Origin: Candidatus Cloacimonadota bacterium
Lineage (GTDB): Bacteria > Cloacimonadota > Cloacimonadia > Cloacimonadales > Cloacimonadaceae
Reading direction: 5' to 3'
DNA: 36,809 nt
Assembly: GCA_017994635.1 (NCBI GenBank)
Contig: JAGOKK010000009.1
Coordinates: forward strand, 1 to 36,809
The stretch's first letter is position 1. The number at the start of each line of letters is the position of its first letter. Position numbers and translations under genes: made by a program. Positions 5,045-21,174 of the stretch are shown piece by piece. The notes under the pieces were generated by a model. That model worked only from the letters and a program-made list of their open reading frames with translations, had not been told where the DNA came from and searched no databases.

Positions 5045-5995
5045 ATGAAACATGCCGGATTGATCGCCCTCATCATCATCCTGACTCTACTCAGCGCTTG
5101 TAAAACCAAGAACGCCGTGGAAGATGGCCCCAAGCCGCTCATAATCACCACCATCCACCCCTATGAACTGATGGTGAAGCAGATGGTGGGCGACGCCATT
5201 GAAGTGAAGTGCCTGGTGCCCCCCAATGCCTCTGTGCATACCTGGAGCCCACAACCCGCCGATCTTGCAGATCTGAACCGTGCCGATCTGGTGATTTCCA
5301 ACGGCATGGGTCTGGAAAACTTCCTGGGCGACGCCCTGAAAAACCTGCCCGCCAAGCATCTCATCGCAGCGGATATGCTCAGCGATCTGGTGGCGCTGGA
5401 TTCACTGAATCAAGTGAAAGAAGAACTGATGCACAGCGCCGCGCACAACGATACCAATGCGGTCGCCGATCACCATCATCATGAAGGTGCCGATCCGCAT
5501 CTCTGGACCAGTCCCCTGATGCTGCAAAAGCTCTGTACCAAGCTCAAAAACGAGCTGGTGATCCTCTTCCCCGATGTGAGCCCTGTGATCAATCACAACC
5601 ACGATCGCATCATCAAAGAACTTAGTACCACGCACGACACGATAACGGCTGAACGCGCCGCGCTCAAAGATCCCGCTCTGCTCACTTATCACAATAGCTT
5701 CCATTACTTCACGCGTGAATACCAGATCCCTTATCTGGGCTGGGTGCAAAGCTCTCCGGGAAAGGAACCTTCCGCCCGGGACCTGGCTGAGCTGGGCAAA
5801 AAGATCAAGGAACACCAGGTAAAATGCATCTTCATCGAGCCCCAACAAAACGACAAAGCCGCGCAAGTACTGGCCAAAGAGTATCAAATGCAGATTTACA
5901 CTCTGGATCCTTTGGGAGGCAGTCTACCCGTGGATAGCGTCAGCGATCTCATCCTGGCCAATTGGAAGGTGATGAAACAGGCCTTTGCGCAATGA
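5045..5995 (+). CDS. znuA: Zinc/manganese ABC transporter substrate-binding lipoprotein (ZnuA/TroA type)
   Basis: 316 residues. The start gives a lipoprotein signal peptide with lipobox L-S-A-C (C19). It is a cluster A-I metal-binding protein that captures Zn2+ (or Mn2+) in the periplasm and hands it to the ABC permease. Family features seen: TTIHPYE with the first ligand H38; NASVHTW with a second His near residue 65; a His-rich loop (DHHHHEGADPHLW), which favours zinc; LLTYHNSFHYF; and a late LDPLGG aspartate. GGGAG lies upstream of the ATG at a usable distance. The stop overlaps the region just before the ATPase gene, so these genes form one operon. No Zur-like palindrome was recognised upstream. 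Confidence 0.93.
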   Translation: MKHAGLIALIIILTLLSACKTKNAVEDGPKPLIITTIHPYELMVKQMVGDAIEVKCLVPPNASVHTWSPQPADLADLNRADLVISNGMGLENFLGDALKNLPAKHLIAADMLSDLVALDSLNQVKEELMHSAAHNDTNAVADHHHHEGADPHLWTSPLMLQKLCTKLKNELVILFPDVSPVINHNHDRIIKELSTTHDTITAERAALKDPALLTYHNSFHYFTREYQIPYLGWVQSSPGKEPSARDLAELGKKIKEHQVKCIFIEPQQNDKAAQVLAKEYQMQIYTLDPLGGSLPVDSVSDLILANWKVMKQAFAQ

Positions 5996-6035
5996 ATCAT
6001 CTCACGCTAGAAGCCTTTACCACGGGCGCGGGACG

Positions 6036-6764
6036 ATGATATCCATCCGCGATCTGAATCACCGCATTTCCGGCAAATACATCTTGCAGGATATCAGTCT
6101 GGAGATACCAGACGGGGCTTTTGCCGCCATCATCGGACCCAATGGCGCCGGCAAATCCACCCTGGTAAAGCTGATAATGGGTCTGATTCCCCTGCAGGAA
6201 GGCTCTGTTACCATTGATGGCATGAAGCAACAGGACTGGCTGAAGCTATACAGCTTTGGCTATCTCCCACAACGGGAGGAATACGACCGCACCTTCCCCG
6301 CCACCGCTTTGGATATCGTCCTGATGGGCATCGCCGGCACCGTCAGCATTGGCAGACGCTGCAGCAAAGCCCAAAAGGCCAAAGCCCTGGATATTATGCA
6401 GCAATGCGGCATCGACGACAAGGTCAAAAGCTTCATCGGTACGCTTTCCGGAGGTGAGTTTCAACGTGTGATGCTGGCCCGCGCCATCCTTTCGGACAGC
6501 CCCTATTTGATCCTGGACGAACCCGAGGCGGGCATCGACCGTCCCGGTGTGCAAAGCTTCTTCGTGCTGCTAAAGCAACTCAATGAAGCGGGCAAAACCA
6601 TCATCACCATCTCGCATGATCTGCATACCCTTTCAGACTATTGCAGCTTTCTGATCTGTTTGAACCGCACTTTGCACTGCCACAGCAAGATGGAATTGGT
6701 AAATGCCGATGTCATCCACAAAACTTTCGGCGACAGCGTGCGCCTGATCGAGAAGGATTATTGA
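6036..6764 (+). CDS. znuC: Zinc/manganese ABC transporter ATP-binding protein (ZnuC type)
   Basis: 242 residues from the ATG at 6036. The frame is open upstream to 5985, but those 17 residues are unlike the family, and the protein starting MISIRDLN aligns with normal ABC N-termini. It hydrolyses ATP to drive metal import. Walker A GPNGAGKST is at 34-42, the Q-loop at LPQ, signature LSGGEFQR from 137, Walker B YLILDE at 157-162 with a D-loop following, and a switch His in ISHDLH. The gene lies directly after znuA and its TGA overlaps the ATG of znuB (TGATG), implying translational coupling. Confidence 0.94.
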   Translation: MISIRDLNHRISGKYILQDISLEIPDGAFAAIIGPNGAGKSTLVKLIMGLIPLQEGSVTIDGMKQQDWLKLYSFGYLPQREEYDRTFPATALDIVLMGIAGTVSIGRRCSKAQKAKALDIMQQCGIDDKVKSFIGTLSGGEFQRVMLARAILSDSPYLILDEPEAGIDRPGVQSFFVLLKQLNEAGKTIITISHDLHTLSDYCSFLICLNRTLHCHSKMELVNADVIHKTFGDSVRLIEKDY

Positions 6765-7549
6765 TGCCATTATTTCTGATCACTGCCCTCGCAGGAGCCG
6801 TGCTATCGGCCATATCCCTGGCCATCTTCGCCCCCTGGGTAACTCTGCGCAAGATATCCTACATGGGTGAAGCCCTGTCCCATATCGCCTTTGCCGGCAT
6901 TGCCATCGCCATCATTACAGGTATAAATCTTACTCTATCGGCCACGATCTTCGTCTGCCTCGTATCCCTTGGCATATCCTGGCTGGCGCGGCGGCAACAA
7001 CTGCAGGAAGCCAATACCATCACCATCTTTCTTTCCCTTTCCATGGCTCTGGGCATCATTCTGATCTCGCTTTCCCGCACCTATAGCTTTGATCTTGCCA
7101 GCTATCTCTTTGGCAATGTACTCCTGATCCAATCCTCTGAACTACTCGCACTGGGCATCCTGACCGTGATGAACATCGCCTTTGTGCTGATCTTTTACAA
7201 AGAACTCTTTTACCTTAGCTACAATCCCGAAATGGCAAAGGTCTTCCGCATCAAAACCTCGCCGGCAGACAAGCTGTTTTCCCTGCTGCTCGCCGCTAAT
7301 ATCGTACTGAATCTGAAAAGCGCGGGGATCATCCTGGTGAGTGCCCAATTGATTCTTCCCGCGGTGATTGCCTTCAATCTGGCACGCAGCTTGCCTCAGG
7401 CGTTGATCATTGCCATTATCTCCGCCATCATCTCCGCCTTGGCCGGCTTTGCCGTTTCATATCTGCTCAATCTCCCCACCGGCGCCACCATTGTGGTCTG
7501 CCAGGCGCTGCTCTACGCCCTCTCTTTCGTCTTCAAAAGGAGAATGTGA
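6764..7549 (+). CDS. znuB: Zinc/manganese ABC transporter permease (ZnuB, ABC-3 family)
   Basis: 261 residues from the ATG at 6764, which overlaps the znuC stop. The open frame extends upstream to 6641, but that part lies inside znuC and is polar. It is an almost wholly hydrophobic protein with about seven to eight predicted membrane helices, typical of ABC-3 permeases. A conserved-looking GEALSHIAFAG stretch near residue 30 matches the family's G(E)x(L)SH...G motif. It forms the membrane channel for metal passed on by ZnuA. Its last codons (AGG AGA ATG TGA) carry the Shine-Dalgarno of the next gene. Confidence 0.93.
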   Translation: MPLFLITALAGAVLSAISLAIFAPWVTLRKISYMGEALSHIAFAGIAIAIITGINLTLSATIFVCLVSLGISWLARRQQLQEANTITIFLSLSMALGIILISLSRTYSFDLASYLFGNVLLIQSSELLALGILTVMNIAFVLIFYKELFYLSYNPEMAKVFRIKTSPADKLFSLLLAANIVLNLKSAGIILVSAQLILPAVIAFNLARSLPQALIIAIISAIISALAGFAVSYLLNLPTGATIVVCQALLYALSFVFKRRM

Positions 7550-14046: not shown

Positions 14047-14859
14047 TCACACAAACAGTGCCAGAGATACCGCCATGATCACCATGCCGGCGATCAATCC
14101 AGAGATGGCGATATGGTGTTCAGCATATTCCTCCGCCGTGGGCAGGAGTTCATCCAGCGAGATATAAACCATGATGCCTGCCACCGCGGCAAAGACCAGG
14201 CCGAAGGCAGCGTCGCTGATGAAGTGTTTCAAGAGAAAAAAGCCCAGAATGGCGCCGATGGGTTCGGATAGGCCAGAAAGGCTGGAGTAAACGAGGGCTT
14301 TGGCACGGCTTTTTGTGGCATAAAATACCGGTACCGAGACGGCTATCCCCTCTGGAATATTGTGGATAGCGATGGCAATGGCGATGCTGACACCCAGGGT
14401 GGGATCTTTTACTCCCGCCATGAAAGTTGCCAGGCCTTCAGGGAAATTGTGAATCCCGATGGCGAGCGCGGAAAAGAGACCCATACGCATCAGCTTGTTA
14501 TCGTCTGGGATAGCCTTTTTCTTCTCTTCGCAATTCATGTACTTCATCTCGTGCGGGTTTTCGTATGATGGCACCAGAAAGTCGATTAGGGCAATGATGC
14601 CCATACCAGCGAAGAAGGCAAGCAGGGTGAGCCAATATCCCTGTACTTCGCCATAAACGAAGCTGAGCGATTCTCTGGCTTTGGGGAAGATCTCGATGAA
14701 GCTTACATAGATCATTACTCCTGCGGAAAGCCCCAGAGCGCCGCTGAGGAACTTTGGGGAAAACTTTTTGGAGGCAAAAGCCATTAGCGAGCCCACCGCA
14801 GTAGATAGGCCCGCTAAAAGGGTTAAAGTAAAGGCAAAAAGGAGATTGCCGGATTCCAT
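14047..14859 (-). CDS. zupT: ZIP family metal transporter (ZupT-like)
   Basis: 270 residues with about eight hydrophobic helices. The ZIP signature histidine motifs are present in helices IV and V as HNFPEGLATF and IHNIPEGIAVS. A cytoplasmic loop (residues ~95-120) lies between helices III and IV, as in bacterial ZupT. It would import Zn2+ (possibly also Fe2+/Mn2+/Co2+) across the inner membrane. The start lies 2 bp after the stop of the upstream thioredoxin-fold gene, so it is the last gene of the dsbD run. It is the second zinc importer in the window, along with ZnuABC. Confidence 0.93.
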   Translation of the reverse strand: MESGNLLFAFTLTLLAGLSTAVGSLMAFASKKFSPKFLSGALGLSAGVMIYVSFIEIFPKARESLSFVYGEVQGYWLTLLAFFAGMGIIALIDFLVPSYENPHEMKYMNCEEKKKAIPDDNKLMRMGLFSALAIGIHNFPEGLATFMAGVKDPTLGVSIAIAIAIHNIPEGIAVSVPVFYATKSRAKALVYSSLSGLSEPIGAILGFFLLKHFISDAAFGLVFAAVAGIMVYISLDELLPTAEEYAEHHIAISGLIAGMVIMAVSLALFV

Positions 14860-14861
14860 GG

Positions 14862-16193
14862 CTATTTGACTTTCAGGATCTTACCCGTGGAAGCAGAACC
14901 TTCCAGACGGTAAAAATATACTCCATTGGGCAGATCGGTGGCATCCCAGCTGACACTATTTGAGCCTTGCACCAGATTGGGCAGGGCAATGGTCTGCACC
15001 TTCTGTCCCTTTACATTGAAGATATCCAGGTTACTTTGATAATGCTTGGCGCTATCGATCTCAAAAGAAAGCTGATCCTGGAAAGGATTGGGATAGCTCC
15101 CGCTGACCTTCAGTACTTCCGAGACTGTGGCATCGTCATTTGCCAGGACAGTACTAAGCACGATGGGGATCTTGTATTCTCCGATATTGGGAGAGCTGAC
15201 CACAAAGTTGAAGACCGCGGTGCCGTGAGTGCCGATACTGATATTCAGATCGTAACCGGCGGCGGTTCCGGAAGCCAGTGTAAAGGGAATTTCCATGCTG
15301 CCTGGATAGCAATTGCCATCCACATCGCAGTAATTGAAGTACCAATCCGGTGGGGCAGAAACTACCTCGATGTGACGGGTGTAAGTATCATCAGCGCCGA
15401 GATTCCAGATATAGAATGCGGGTGATTCATATTGGGTATTGTCTTGTCCATAATAGATATTGGAACCAAAAGGCAGGGCGGCCTGCACCCGGTATTGGGG
15501 CATGGCTTTACTGCTGACGCTTTGGATGATCTCGCCAGTTTCTAACTGGACAAAGGCAACTGCCCAAAGATTGGACACATTCCAGGAATAATCGATGGCA
15601 AAAGCCTGGTCGAAAGTCTGAACGCTGCCGGTGTAAGAGATAGAAAGATCCTCAGAAATGACATCCCGCAGTATATGGGTCAGGTCGCTGGTTACATCAT
15701 CTTCCAGCAGGTAATAGATCAGCTTGGCATTGGTGTAGCTCACATCCGGATCCAACATTTCCAGATCCACACCCACCACACCAGTGGCAGCCACAAAAGT
15801 GGGCATCTGCATCCGGATGGGTGAGCCCTGATAACGGAAGTGATTGGCAGCGATCATGTAACTGGTGCCATCGGCAATCCCATCGCCGGAGCCATCCACG
15901 CGGATCTTTCCGTTGAAGATCACCGCCGGCAGACCTTGTACATCGTAATAACTGAAGCGGGCGTCGATTTCAGGGGTGCTATATTCGCCGCTTTCGGTGA
16001 GCAGGCGGGTATAGATCAGCTCTCCTTCGGAAACTTGGGAGGCCACAACGTCCAGGCCGTCCAGAGCAAATTCACATGCTCCGCACCAAGTAGCACCGAA
16101 GTTTTCCACCAAAGTAGTGGTGGGATACAAGGTAGGATCAGCCGCCAGGAAGGCCATGCTGATCAGCATAAGAATTGTGGTGATATACTTCAT
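14862..16193 (-). CDS. Secreted Omp28-like thioredoxin-fold protein (CGAC) with FlgD-like sorting tail
   Basis: 443 residues. AGGAGT six bases before the ATG supports the start, and a signal peptide follows (cut near FLAAD). Residues ~25-150 begin a thioredoxin-like fold: LVENFGATWCGACEFA with C37/C40, then a QGLPAVIFNG segment giving the cis-proline of such folds. This start (LVE-F-ATWCG-C) is typical of Omp28-related proteins. The middle is beta-rich with a further CDVDGNC pair near residue 295. The end has GSYPNPFQDQL, LDIFNVKGQKV, WDATDLPNGVYFYRL. It likely works outside the cell or on its surface as a thiol-disulfide protein. It follows the barrel gene by 10 bp. Confidence 0.85.
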   Translation of the reverse strand: MKYITTILMLISMAFLAADPTLYPTTTLVENFGATWCGACEFALDGLDVVASQVSEGELIYTRLLTESGEYSTPEIDARFSYYDVQGLPAVIFNGKIRVDGSGDGIADGTSYMIAANHFRYQGSPIRMQMPTFVAATGVVGVDLEMLDPDVSYTNAKLIYYLLEDDVTSDLTHILRDVISEDLSISYTGSVQTFDQAFAIDYSWNVSNLWAVAFVQLETGEIIQSVSSKAMPQYRVQAALPFGSNIYYGQDNTQYESPAFYIWNLGADDTYTRHIEVVSAPPDWYFNYCDVDGNCYPGSMEIPFTLASGTAAGYDLNISIGTHGTAVFNFVVSSPNIGEYKIPIVLSTVLANDDATVSEVLKVSGSYPNPFQDQLSFEIDSAKHYQSNLDIFNVKGQKVQTIALPNLVQGSNSVSWDATDLPNGVYFYRLEGSASTGKILKVK

Positions 16194-16203
16194 GTTTATA
16201 CTC

Positions 16204-17646
16204 CTAAAATCTGGTGGTAAACTCTGCTTTTACACCCTCAAAAGGAGCCACAAATCTGCAAACTCCATTGCGGCAGACTTTTCCTCCAGCTTCCTTACCA
16301 GCGAAGATGAGGATGTCGCTATGGCTGAAGAGGGGATACTTTGCTTCGATATTTGGCATATAGCGGCTTTCCATGAGGGAAGAGAAATCCTCGAGGTGAG
16401 CGGAAAGCCCCAGAGACAGGGATAGTTTATCTACGCTGAAATCAGCCTGCAGTTTTGGTTCGTAATGGCTGGATTCATGGTCGTAGGATTGCTTTTCCAC
16501 GGTTTTAAACTCCCCTTTCAAGGTGAGCGGTAGATCCGCAATCTCAAAAGCGGCGGTAAGCGCGGGATAATACTCTTTTTGCCAGTAGCTAACTGCTTCA
16601 TCTATCTTTTCGATGTGAGAAAAAGACAGATTGTACTGTTGTGACCCCTGATACGCCACTTCTACATAGAGATCGTTCATCTGTTTGTCCTGCGGGCTAT
16701 CCCAGGCTTCGGCATAATCGGCGCTTAGCGACCAGGTGTAGCCAAGATTGAGCAGTGCCCGGGCCTGCCAGCCTTCTTCGTCAATACCGCTGGCCAGAGC
16801 GTCAGACAGGGTCTCTGCATGGTAGTTTGCCAGGGGCAGATCCTGCAGGCGATAGCTGAAATCATCATAGTGTTTATAAGCACCGCCCAATTGGAGGGGT
16901 CCAAACATATAGTCCGCATTGGCATAGATGGCAGAGCCTTCGATGGCGCCGCCAGCTATGCGATAGTGCTTGCTAACGGCATACTCGGTATAAGCTTCCA
17001 GATTGGCCTGACTGAGCAGCAATCTGCCGGCAAAGACATCACGGAAGCTATAGCGGTTCATCGCGCCCAGATTGCGGAATCCGAGGGCTGATGCGCCTAA
17101 TTGAATGCCCTTCACAACGGGGTATTGGGCATCTGCGCCATAAGCCAGATCCCAACGGTCGGCATAGCTCTGACTCTCGATGCCGCCATAGAAGGTTTTG
17201 AACTTCAGCTTGCTATCATACTTGATCAGAAAGCTTTCCATGCGGTGATCGGTATCGAATTCCACATCTTCATAAGAGCGGAAGCTGAGTCCCTGTCCGA
17301 AGGTCTCGGAAGTGGTTCCGGCGTGCAGGGAAAAGGCGTCCTGGCTGTATCCGGCATAAAGCTCTTTCCAGCCCAGTTCCAGACGGTTGGGATCCAGATC
17401 CTGCATCAGCTCGGTCTGTTGGTTTGAATATTTGGGCAATTCGCCGATGAACTTCATGCCAAAGCGGAAGTTTCGGTAAGCCAGATTGAAGGCGAAGCTA
17501 TCTTTGAAATACACATTCAGGGAATCTTCTGCATTGCGATAAATCATCTGCGCTTCGTTGATGCCGTTGATCTGCAGATTGGTCTGAGCCATCAGCGCAG
17601 TGCCGGCAAGTGTCAAAAGCAGGATCACAAGTAGCTTATGTTTCAT
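16204..17646 (-). CDS. DUF6029-like outer-membrane beta-barrel with one CX4C pair
   Basis: 480 residues with a signal peptide (cut near LMAQT). The mature part alternates polar and aromatic residues throughout and ends in F, as outer-membrane barrels do. Its overall pattern and the ending FAGKEAGGKVCRNGVCRFVAPFEG resemble the DUF6029 family of Bacteroidota, which I recognise only from pattern. The mature protein has just two cysteines, C458 and C463 (C-RNGV-C), in the last hairpin before the closing strand. Given neighbours with thioredoxin folds, these may form a functional disulfide. Its start overlaps the stop of the TlpA-like gene (ATGA), so translation is coupled. Not a known porin family. 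Confidence 0.75.
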   Translation of the reverse strand: MKHKLLVILLLTLAGTALMAQTNLQINGINEAQMIYRNAEDSLNVYFKDSFAFNLAYRNFRFGMKFIGELPKYSNQQTELMQDLDPNRLELGWKELYAGYSQDAFSLHAGTTSETFGQGLSFRSYEDVEFDTDHRMESFLIKYDSKLKFKTFYGGIESQSYADRWDLAYGADAQYPVVKGIQLGASALGFRNLGAMNRYSFRDVFAGRLLLSQANLEAYTEYAVSKHYRIAGGAIEGSAIYANADYMFGPLQLGGAYKHYDDFSYRLQDLPLANYHAETLSDALASGIDEEGWQARALLNLGYTWSLSADYAEAWDSPQDKQMNDLYVEVAYQGSQQYNLSFSHIEKIDEAVSYWQKEYYPALTAAFEIADLPLTLKGEFKTVEKQSYDHESSHYEPKLQADFSVDKLSLSLGLSAHLEDFSSLMESRYMPNIEAKYPLFSHSDILIFAGKEAGGKVCRNGVCRFVAPFEGVKAEFTTRF

Positions 17647-18200
17647 CTATCGCCCTCTAAAGTCTGCGGTTCCGGATTCTCATCTTCCAGCTTCACTTTG
17701 TCTGTGGGCACAGGCATGATCTCCGGATTGACCATCGCTTTGATGTGGCGGTCGTATTCGGCTTCCAATCCGGGTTCAAAACCTACGTGAGAATAGACGA
17801 TTTGACCTTCTGGATTGAGGATAAAACTATGGGGAGGAGTGCCTACATTCAGTTTTTTGGCCAGGCTCTTGTCGGGATCAAAGAGGGCGACAAACTTGTA
17901 GTTTTTGCTCTTCAGATAGTTCTTGGCGCGCATCTGGGTCTTGGGGGCATCGATGGAGATCATCACCACAGTGAGGTCTTCATACTTTTGTGCCAGATCA
18001 TTGAGGTAAGGCATGGCGGTCTTGCAGGGGGCGCAGAAATCAGCCCAGAAATCGATCAGAATAGGGCCTTTGCCCAATAGACTTTCCAGGCTTACATTGT
18101 TGCCATCCATATCGGACAAGCGAAAATCCGGCATCAGATCGGCCGCGCTGAGTGTTACCATCAGGATGGTCAGGGCCATCAGCAGTACTAAGCGTTTCAT
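17643..18200 (-). CDS. TlpA-like periplasmic thioredoxin (CAPC)
   Basis: 185 residues with a signal peptide (cut near LSAAD). A TlpA/ResA-like redoxin domain follows: DFRLSDMDG near 25, IDFWADFCAPCKTAMPYL with C56/C59, a redoxin beta-strand VVMISIDAPKTQM, and the cis-Pro region VGTPPHSFI. The C-terminal ~30 residues are polar and Glu/Pro-rich. It should carry reducing equivalents in the periplasm, most simply receiving them from DsbD of the same run. The ATG directly follows the TAA of the lipoprotein gene, and its Shine-Dalgarno (AGGAG) lies inside that gene's end. The exact client is not known. Confidence 0.9.
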   Translation of the reverse strand: MKRLVLLMALTILMVTLSAADLMPDFRLSDMDGNNVSLESLLGKGPILIDFWADFCAPCKTAMPYLNDLAQKYEDLTVVMISIDAPKTQMRAKNYLKSKNYKFVALFDPDKSLAKKLNVGTPPHSFILNPEGQIVYSHVGFEPGLEAEYDRHIKAMVNPEIMPVPTDKVKLEDENPEPQTLEGDR

Positions 18201-19310
18201 TTATTTACTCCTTGTGGGCTGTAAATTGCTCTGAGTAATGCCGCCATATATGGTGGCGTTATTCTGGAAGCTGGCAGGTTTCTTTTGGGCAAAGATCACC
18301 AGAGTGTACTCTGCGGGAAGTTCACCTGGAGTGGTCAGACTAAAGGGGATGGGCTGGGACAAATCCACGCCTGCGAGGCTATGCGATCCCTTGGCACGTA
18401 CCACGTTGTGCAGCGGCTGCCCCGCGTAATTTGTATATTCATGTTCATCGGAGATAATCACGTAGTTCAGCACTACATCGCTGAAGTCGATCTCCATTTT
18501 GGGGGTAAGCTTTACGTTGCCGCTCAGTTCATTACCCGCTACCATAGTGTTGATCAGATCGTAGCTGACAGGTTCATCCACGCGGGTGTAAGCATCCACA
18601 ATGCTCTGATACTGACTAAGGCTGCTGTCGCTGCTGTCATTTACTTTATCGGTACCCTGAAACACCGCTGAGGGCTGCGACCAGGCCTGGTAATACATGT
18701 AGGTCTGATCTCCCGGAAGGGCCAGCTCCATAGTAACATGATGCTCCAGATAGATGAAGTTTTGGGGATACTGAGCTTGCAGTGCCTGTAACTTGGCTTC
18801 GGAGGGAGGACAATTTGGGCAGGTACGGAAGGTGAAGTATTCAGCAATCACCAGTTGCTTGCCCAGATTGGGAATACACACGCTATTGCCCTTTAGCACC
18901 CAATTGTCCCCTTCCTTGCGGATGGTTTCACCGATAAAGCTGCTATCGGCCAATACACTGCTATTCCGCGTTACTTTGAGGCGCCAGTTTACAACGGCAT
19001 TTTCGGCATCTGTGCTTTGTGCGTTGAGGGCGAGCACTTCATAAATGGTGCCTGATTCGCTGAGGAAGCTGCTGATCCAGGCCACGCGATCTGCTTTATT
19101 GATACCATTATGTAGGTAGTCATCGCTGTACATGGCCTCAATCGCACTAACATCAGAGGCTGTGATCTGTGTGAGGGCAGCCTGCAGAGGCATGAAAAAA
19201 TCGGCATCAAAATCCACATCGGTGGGGGGTGCAAAGCTATGCTCAAAACGGTCGCAGGAAACTGCTCCCAGTAGTAGTAACAGAGCCGTCAAAATCAATA
19301 TATATCGCAT
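18201..19310 (-). CDS. Lipoprotein fusing an NTF2-like domain to an Omp28-like thioredoxin fold (CPNC)
   Basis: 369 residues from the second of two tandem ATGs (19310). GAGGA lies only one base from the first ATG (19313) but four from the second. The lipobox is L-G-A-V-S-C (C19). Residues ~35-145 resemble an NTF2/SnoaL-like fold: a YSDDYLHNG segment, then VVNWRLKV and RKEGDNWVLKG strands. From ~150, LVIAEYFTFRTCPNCPPSEAKL with C164/C167 is the Omp28-type thioredoxin motif, followed by FIYLEHHV and PSAVFQG. It is membrane-attached by lipid, probably to the outer membrane. It starts 7 bp after dsbD and touches the TlpA-like gene, which suggests it is a redox partner. Confidence 0.82.
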   Translation of the reverse strand: MRYILILTALLLLLGAVSCDRFEHSFAPPTDVDFDADFFMPLQAALTQITASDVSAIEAMYSDDYLHNGINKADRVAWISSFLSESGTIYEVLALNAQSTDAENAVVNWRLKVTRNSSVLADSSFIGETIRKEGDNWVLKGNSVCIPNLGKQLVIAEYFTFRTCPNCPPSEAKLQALQAQYPQNFIYLEHHVTMELALPGDQTYMYYQAWSQPSAVFQGTDKVNDSSDSSLSQYQSIVDAYTRVDEPVSYDLINTMVAGNELSGNVKLTPKMEIDFSDVVLNYVIISDEHEYTNYAGQPLHNVVRAKGSHSLAGVDLSQPIPFSLTTPGELPAEYTLVIFAQKKPASFQNNATIYGGITQSNLQPTRSK

Positions 19311-19317
19311 CATATCC

Positions 19318-21174
19318 TCACTCAGCTATTTTATCCAGGGCTTCATTTACCATGTTTTTACTCAGCAATTCCGGAAATACCACAGGTTCCTTACCCGGTA
19401 TGTACAGGGCATTGAAGGGAACGCCCATGCGCTCATGCTGCTTGACCCATTCCAGCAGGACAGGATCCTTTTTGGTGAAATCGCCCTTTAGTAATACTAC
19501 TCCTTTGGCTTGGAAAGACTGCATCATATCATCGGTAAAAAGGACGGTCTTTTCATTTGTTTTGCAGTTTTTACACCACTCGGCGCCGATATCCAGAAAC
19601 ACGCTCTTACCGTCAGCGAGTAGCTTGGCGTGCAACTGAGGAGAAAAAACGTACCAGCCTTCGGGAGCATGCGTGGATTGGACCATCTCGTCACCCACGG
19701 GCTGTACCTGCATTTTATCCAGATGCTTTTCCTGAATGGGCAGATAGTGCCAGGCAGCAAAGATGATCATCAGGAGGGGGATGATGGTGAAGATCCACTG
19801 TGTGGTTTTACTGTATTCAAACCGGACAAACTTGCCATAAAGCCACACGGCAAAGCCCAGAATCAAGAGGAACCAGAGTACGGAAAGTAGATACAATCCT
19901 CCGGTTAGCGCCAGGGTGGTCTTTAGCATGGTATAAACCAGATAGAGCAGCACAAAGCCCATCAGTTCTTTGAACAGCACCATCCAGTCTCCCGGCTTGG
20001 GGATGATTTTGAGCGCTTTGGGGAACATGCCGATGAGGATGAAGGGGAAGGCAAAACCCAGCCCGATCAAGAGGAAAAAGACCATGATCAGCACCGGGGG
20101 AAGATTCATGGCAAAAGGCAGCGCCGCACCCAGGAAGGGTCCCGTGCAGGAAATCGCCATCAAAAAAGCAAAGATGCCGCCAAAGAAACTGCCGCCGTAG
20201 CCGCCCTTGGTGGTAGCTTTACTGGCAGTATTCATCCCCGGAGCGGTGATTTCAAAGATGCCCAGGAGCGAAAGAGCGAAGACAAAGACGATCGCCAGCA
20301 GCGCTACTCCAAAATATGGGTTCTGGTTTTGCGTACCCCAGCCGGCAGTGCTGCCCGCAGCCTGGATACCGATGAAAATGCCCGCCAGAATGGCAAAGGA
20401 GATCAGTACGCCCAGGGTGTAAACCATCACGTGTCTAAAGACCTTGCTGCGATCTTTCTGAGCTTGATTGATGATGCTCATGATGCGGATGGGCAAGATG
20501 GGCAGGACGCAGGGAGTAATATTCAGGATCAGGCCGCCCAAAAAGGCAAAGATTAGGTACTTCAGGATTTCGCTCAATCCGCTTTGTTTTGCCGGAGGCT
20601 CAGCCGCGCTTTCTTCTGCCGAACTCTGCGCATCAGCTTCTGGCGCTTCAATTTCTACCAAAGGTTCATCCGTATCGGTAACCGCCGTTTCAGGATCATT
20701 GGCAAGCATAGTTTCGGATATTGGACGTGACTCCTGAATGGTAAAGGATAGCGTGGCTTCTTTTTCTTCCGGTGGATCGCACATCCCGCTCGCATAGCAG
20801 AGATTGTAGCTTAGCAGGACATCCAGGGTCTTAGTGCCAGGTTTGGCACCGGACTTAACCGTAAACGGCAGGCTGAGCTTTACTGAAGGGTAGTATTGCC
20901 ACTCGGTGTCAGATACGATCTTGGTTGGCTTGGGCAACACCATCGGGGCAATCTGCAGATCAGGATGGCTGGCCTCGATGTAAAAGTAGGCAGGGTCATT
21001 GGGATCCACGCTCTGTTTACGATCAGAGGGTATCGTCAGCGTTGCGCTGATGGTACCTGCATCACCGGGACCAAGTATTTTGGGAGAAATATTGAAGCTT
21101 ACGCTCTGAGCCGTGAGACCCAGCGTAAGCAACCATAACACTATCAGTATGGGCGCTGTAAACCGTGAGCGCAT
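19318..21174 (-). CDS. dsbD: Thiol:disulfide interchange protein DsbD
   Basis: 618 residues, full length for the family. It passes electrons from cytoplasmic thioredoxin through the membrane to periplasmic thiol proteins. All six expected cysteines are present: C126/C132 (C-x5-C) in the N-terminal alpha domain, C222 (TPCVLP) and C343 (SCTGPFLG) in the membrane domain, C534/C537 (WCKNC) in the C-terminal thioredoxin domain. There is a signal peptide (cut near LTAQS) and about eight to nine hydrophobic helices at ~203-480. GGAGG six bases before the ATG makes the start secure. It is the first gene of a minus-strand run of six, so its expression probably sets that of the other thiol proteins. 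Confidence 0.97.
   Translation of the reverse strand: MRSRFTAPILIVLWLLTLGLTAQSVSFNISPKILGPGDAGTISATLTIPSDRKQSVDPNDPAYFYIEASHPDLQIAPMVLPKPTKIVSDTEWQYYPSVKLSLPFTVKSGAKPGTKTLDVLLSYNLCYASGMCDPPEEKEATLSFTIQESRPISETMLANDPETAVTDTDEPLVEIEAPEADAQSSAEESAAEPPAKQSGLSEILKYLIFAFLGGLILNITPCVLPILPIRIMSIINQAQKDRSKVFRHVMVYTLGVLISFAILAGIFIGIQAAGSTAGWGTQNQNPYFGVALLAIVFVFALSLLGIFEITAPGMNTASKATTKGGYGGSFFGGIFAFLMAISCTGPFLGAALPFAMNLPPVLIMVFFLLIGLGFAFPFILIGMFPKALKIIPKPGDWMVLFKELMGFVLLYLVYTMLKTTLALTGGLYLLSVLWFLLILGFAVWLYGKFVRFEYSKTTQWIFTIIPLLMIIFAAWHYLPIQEKHLDKMQVQPVGDEMVQSTHAPEGWYVFSPQLHAKLLADGKSVFLDIGAEWCKNCKTNEKTVLFTDDMMQSFQAKGVVLLKGDFTKKDPVLLEWVKQHERMGVPFNALYIPGKEPVVFPELLSKNMVNEALDKIAE

Follow-up and report, generated by a model that had tools for sequence, protein, structure and literature searches.

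The chemistry of DsbD and TlpA is established for their families, and the textbook partners of DsbD are DsbA-type oxidation and cytochrome-c assembly. In the classical pathways, DsbD supplies periplasmic thioredoxins such as TlpA, ResA/CcmG and DsbC; to our knowledge, the known DsbD pathways end in the periplasm. HBP35 of Porphyromonas gingivalis is a surface thioredoxin exported by the type IX secretion system (T9SS), which has an active CXXC site and binds haemin (PMC2907840). The flavinylated DUF3570/DUF4266 clusters place DsbD and a thioredoxin-like protein beside exported redox proteins, and they contain ApbE and a flavinylated DUF3570 protein (PMC8238504). In Shewanella, the loss of dsbD abolishes most of the reduction of an outside disulfide; this reduction runs via the Mtr cytochromes, and DsbD acts indirectly via cytochrome maturation (PMC10986466). 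NapH-like iron-sulfur proteins are Fer4_5 membrane proteins found in exported redox clusters.

Herein, we analysed a stretch of 36,809 nucleotides (the window) from the 2.1 Mb draft genome of a Candidatus Cloacimonadota bacterium (G000; G numbers denote genomes and L numbers loci). The window contains a five-gene cassette, of which we found no description in a literature search made mostly outside subscription journals. The cassette shares the DsbD anatomy and a ResA/TlpA-fold carrier with the classical pathways, but its carrier is linked to an outer-membrane barrel, in some genomes by fusion, and neither classical partner was found in 40 sampled genomes of the phylum. Its secreted protein has a thioredoxin-like domain and a T9SS tail, as HBP35 does; in contrast to HBP35, its homologues have often lost the CXXC, and the cysteine pair that they keep is in an Ig-like domain. 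DsbD and a thioredoxin-like protein stand beside exported redox proteins as in the flavinylated clusters, whereas ApbE and DUF3570 are absent from the cassette (no DUF3570 match among the seven window proteins scanned) and the barrel belongs to DUF6029. Unlike the Mtr route of Shewanella, which needs c-type cytochrome assembly, a cassette-driven route would have to do without it, since searches for cytochrome-c assembly (PF01578) gave 0 matches in 40 sampled Cloacimonadota genomes while the controls were positive. The NapH-like proteins reported below share the Fer4_5 membrane protein and the exported redox setting with the known ones, but their place between a standalone DsbD N-domain and TlpA (six genomes) was not found in the related literature.

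Layout and conservation of the cassette

The five minus-strand open reading frames lie head to tail from 21174 to 14862, in the order dsbD, lipoprotein, tlpA, barrel and secreted protein, with intervals of 4, 0, -4 and 10 bp (Table 1). The preliminary description of this locus had reported such a co-directional run with spacing of at most 10 bp and a set of cysteines for each protein; all five reading frames were recovered, and every listed residue is in the translations. That inventory overlooked a second pair in the secreted protein, C289-x5-C295, which is the conserved one, and the zupT gene 2 bp past the run. The compartments of the five proteins are predictions from their signal, lipobox, barrel and sorting-tail features.

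Table 1. Position of the cassette genes, their functional sites and associated features (window positions unless a locus is given)
Feature	Position	Strand	Remarks
dsbD, 618 aa	19318..21174	-	N-domain C126/C132, membrane C222/C343, C-terminal CKNC C534/C537
Omp28-like lipoprotein, 370 aa	18201..19313	-	lipobox C20, CPNC C165-C168
TlpA/ResA-like exported thioredoxin, 185 aa	17643..18200	-	CAPC C56-C59
DUF6029 outer-membrane barrel, 480 aa	16204..17646	-	Pfam DUF6029, 58.3 bits vs cut-off 27
CRNGVC hairpin, C458-x4-C463, last loop of barrel	16258..16275	-	kept in 58/58 sequences
Secreted protein, 443 aa	14862..16193	-	Omp28-like thioredoxin domain, Ig-like domain, T9SS tail
CGAC site C37-C40 of secreted protein	16074..16085	-	not conserved
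Ig-like domain of secreted protein, pair C289/C295	15138..15488	-	pair in 50/52 orthologues
T9SS type A sorting tail	14871..15095	-	TIGR04183, 37.1 bits vs cut-off 23
zupT	14047..14859	-	NCBIfam ZupT, 374 bits vs cut-off 252; 2 bp downstream of secreted gene
DsbD N-domain / NapH-like 4Fe-4S / TlpA triad	L165:5357-7399, L133:11253-13252, L139:5375-7365, L188-L195		
TlpA-domain protein, ~495 aa	L107:11767-13254, L118:11742-13223, L119:11815-13308		

In the window, zupT is likely co-transcribed with the cassette. We rejected ZupT as a core member because it is present at only 7 fetched loci, from a few relatives. Sequence features point to a Znu-like metal ABC transporter at 5045-7549, less than 10 kb from ZupT. 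A promoter scan gave no excess over shuffled sequences.

A whole-protein query found the barrel in 101 of 118 sampled Cloacimonadota genomes, nearly always at a single locus; second matches within a genome were mostly fragments from contig ends or frame breaks. A barrel profile retrieved 74 contig loci, at which we counted neighbours wherever the flanks were long enough. TlpA is immediately upstream of the barrel in 61/61 testable loci and the lipoprotein gene comes next in 59/59. DsbD follows in 44 of 46, the two exceptions being a dsbD split in two frames and a replacement. On the other side, a homologue of the secreted protein is downstream of the barrel in all 62 testable loci. Four further loci, beyond these counts, carry a fused barrel. 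Genome regions that were fetched separately, many of them covering the same loci, show this order as well. The polysaccharide genes flanking the cassette in the window recur in none of the fetched loci; given that the flanking genes vary while the cassette order is kept, the arrangement is not mere synteny. Thus, nearly all Cloacimonadota carry the five genes as a fixed block. Free variation of the neighbours would have counted against the preliminary description; instead dsbD, TlpA and Omp28-like genes recur beside the DUF6029-like barrel throughout the Cloacimonadota loci. Two draft assemblies have the barrel broken into two reading frames (L066:7595-9007 and L087:1439-2930), by loss or assembly error.

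The relatives from the contig collection are Cloacimonadota, two of them labelled Armatimonadota. The contig scan, which returned only Cloacimonadota-type loci, relied on a pattern derived from the barrel hairpin and therefore cannot serve as proof of hairpin conservation; the 118-genome search used the whole protein. Accordingly, the cysteine counts given below for DsbD, the lipoprotein, TlpA and the barrel come from genome regions chosen from whole-protein barrel matches. A search of plasmids gave no such locus.

Cysteine pairs from the inner membrane to the surface protein

DsbD exceeded the cut-offs of Pfam DsbD_TM (79.5 bits) and Thioredoxin_7, while its DsbD_N match (18.6 bits) was below the cut-off of 25. 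With the membrane domain, exported domains at both termini and three cysteine pairs it is a DsbD, and its six cysteines are invariant in 49/49 aligned orthologues. TlpA exceeded the Pfam cut-offs for Redoxin/AhpC-TSA, which places it among the TlpA/ResA thioredoxins, and its CXXC is invariant in all 61 orthologues. In one lineage, a protein of about 495 aa with a C-terminal TlpA-like domain is encoded directly downstream of the secreted gene (Table 1).

The lipobox cysteine and the CXXC of the lipoprotein are invariant (56/56 orthologues). By hhalign, its thioredoxin-like part is related to that of the secreted protein. The likeness of both proteins to Omp28 stays below family thresholds: the lipoprotein scored 23.8 bits against NF033782 (cut-off 150) and the secreted protein 26.2 bits against PF11551 (cut-off 34.9). 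The residues after the lipobox cysteine (window 19256-19239) are strongly conserved, reading C-[DEN]-R-F-[ED]-[HN] in most orthologues, and are perhaps a sorting or docking signal.

The barrel exceeded the curated DUF6029 cut-off. Its CX4C pair is present in every full-length sequence and no other cysteine column is conserved; the hairpin is also the most conserved 11-residue stretch of the protein. The preliminary description had made its proposal depend on this pair, which proved invariant. We modelled a natural fusion of TlpA and barrel from L133 (pLDDT 90, pTM 0.72). The strand list gives about 24 strands, and the last two are connected by a small hairpin that contains C621 and C626. For a barrel with an even number of strands and its N-terminus in the periplasm, standard topology would place the hairpin loop outside the cell. 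Foldseek matched the barrel region of this model to FimD ushers and OmpM1, whose fold it resembled, and its N-domain to ResA/TlpA; a PDB sequence search with the barrel gave no match. Our full-text literature search, made mostly outside subscription journals, returned a single paper for DUF6029, a study of polysaccharide porins that tentatively ties the family to polysaccharide export (PMC9603273).

The CGAC site of the secreted protein, chosen in the preliminary description as its cysteine pair, does not stand up as a conserved surface element. Of 52 aligned homologues, 18 are without the Omp28-like domain, and a CXXC is present in just 19 of the 34 domains that remain; a conserved CXXC of the HBP35 type is therefore not a feature of this family. 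The pair that is conserved lies in the Ig-like domain (Table 1). Its two exceptions are a truncated protein (L106) and, in L122, which has two copies, the longer one. A profile of the Ig-like domain found it only at the cassette locus in G000 and five relatives, and G104 has it on the barrel contig with a weak fragment on another contig. The domain is essentially single-copy per genome, at the cassette locus. An hhalign comparison of the Ig-like domain with the DsbD N-domain gave a probability of 41, against less than 2 for three control domains; this motif-level likeness is weak and only suggestive.

The model of the full-length secreted protein (pLDDT 94) had HBP35 as its best fold match, in a Foldseek search that did not isolate the Ig-like domain. 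Homologues of the T9SS sortase PorU and of SprA exceeded their cut-offs in G000. Given the type A tail and this machinery, export by the T9SS is predicted. At L129, L130, L131 and L141 the secreted gene downstream of the barrel is enlarged to 670-760 aa, with tandem copies, the first of which keeps the Ig-domain pair.

TlpA-barrel fusions, redox partners and a NapH-like variant

TlpA and the barrel form a single protein at L132, L133, L139 and L140 (G058, G014, G033 and G107) and at L048 (G041). The four fused TlpA domains that we tested form one clade nested within the barrel-adjacent TlpAs, indicating that the neighbour was fused and not an unrelated thioredoxin. The fusions thus support a coupling of TlpA to the barrel. 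The secreted gene is present at the fused locus L139 (10417-11151), and the stretch of L133 that was covered showed none.

Searches for the DsbA, DsbB and VKOR families found none in the 40 sampled Cloacimonadota genomes, with working positive controls. Taken with the lack of cytochrome-c assembly in the same genomes, these results mean that the textbook partners of DsbD are missing. DsbD_TM itself is present in 38/40 genomes, and once in G000, inside the cassette. In G009 and G034, DsbD_TM was present and the barrel was not detected; the G034 contig ends at DsbD, and the neighbours of DsbD in G009 (L187) are unrelated genes and a gene whose product has a T9SS-like tail. The barrel-less G009 indicates that DsbD has other uses, and that a genome can keep DsbD and T9SS cargo where it has no barrel.

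A NapH-like iron-sulfur membrane protein (Pfam Fer4_5) is encoded in 8 of 118 genomes, including all five with a fused barrel. In six of the eight it is flanked by a standalone DsbD-like N-domain (135-169 aa) and TlpA. In G107 (L190) the gene precedes TlpA near a contig start, and on the short piece from G067 (L193) no neighbour was matched. The short reading frames at these loci had been candidates for C-terminal thioredoxin domains of DsbD, a reading we rejected because their profile positions correspond to N-domains. G014 and G028 have the NapH-like protein and no DsbD_TM match, and G033 has both. The NapH-like module appears to replace DsbD in G014 and G028, which makes the triad a candidate iron-sulfur stand-in for DsbD; the iron-sulfur protein may drive the thiol pathway there.

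Proposed pathway and competing explanations

We propose that DsbD carries electrons over the inner membrane from thioredoxin in the cytoplasm, a step established for its family, and would pass them, as its family suggests, to two exported thioredoxin-fold carriers, TlpA and the lipoprotein. TlpA would then act on or in the barrel, as the fusions suggest. The terminal dithiols would be the CRNGVC hairpin and the Ig-domain pair of the T9SS-exported protein; they may be kept reduced, or may reduce an outside substrate, perhaps extracellular protein disulfides or cystine. The inner-membrane step would be exchangeable, with the standalone N-domain and the NapH-like protein serving where DsbD is absent (two genomes).

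There is good support for the cassette as a reductive module dedicated to the outer membrane. As a whole, a dedicated reductive thiol pathway serving the outer membrane is our best explanation of the five genes, and we consider its chances about even. The preliminary description went further and had electrons pass on to the cell surface. Its fixed neighbours and invariant barrel pair held, while CGAC as the conserved pair of the surface protein did not; the TlpA-barrel fusions and the missing DsbD partners add support to its interpretation. Passage of electrons to the surface could go either way on the present evidence. Invariant cysteine pairs can be structural, which counts against a relay, and TlpA and a hairpin predicted to be extracellular are on opposite faces, so that a relay would have to run through the barrel or rely on a mobile element. 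The most specific form, a thiol-only conduit from DsbD- or iron-sulfur-driven TlpA through the ~24-strand barrel to the outer hairpin and the Ig dithiol, giving haem- and flavin-free reduction of extracellular disulfides, is a tentative possibility.

The main rival concerns assembly. Here the hairpin and Ig pairs would be structural disulfides, corrected in the periplasm by DsbD, TlpA and the lipoprotein before insertion or secretion, with no electrons leaving the cell. Cross-strand hairpin cysteines suit a structural disulfide, a fused TlpA could serve its own barrel during folding, and handling periplasmic disulfides is a normal role of DsbD. However, with no DsbA, DsbB or VKOR in the 40 genomes there is no known oxidant whose errors would need correction, and three dedicated redox proteins are a large outlay for one hairpin. 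We regard this explanation as rather unlikely.

Periplasmic housekeeping is distinctly improbable. DsbD, TlpA and the lipoprotein would feed ordinary enzymes of the periplasm, such as methionine sulfoxide reductase (Msr) or peroxidases, and the barrel would be a porin linked incidentally. Several clients are usual for DsbD pathways, the barrel-less genome keeps DsbD, and DUF6029 has the tentative tie to polysaccharide export cited above (PMC9603273). In addition, pneumococcal surface thioredoxins are reported to feed an Msr (PMC3914529). An incidental linkage sits poorly with the phylum-wide fixed order, the TlpA-barrel fusion and the cysteine pairs in the barrel and the secreted protein themselves. 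Metal handling, with the hairpin and Ig dithiols binding a surface metal such as zinc, the thiol pathway keeping them reduced and the barrel serving as an import pore, would fit ZupT after the cassette in the window and at seven fetched loci and the nearby Znu-like transporter, but it is very improbable given that most loci are without ZupT and that the site would be weak, with two hairpin cysteines and no conserved His or acidic partner.

Under the dedicated reductive pathway that we favour, most of this phylum links DsbD, or a stand-in for it, with a barrel in the outer membrane and a protein at the surface. Should the last step prove true, this would be a haem-free export of reducing power, possibly an undescribed way out of the cell. 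Replacement of DsbD by the NapH-like protein would give thiol pathways a second new supply route.
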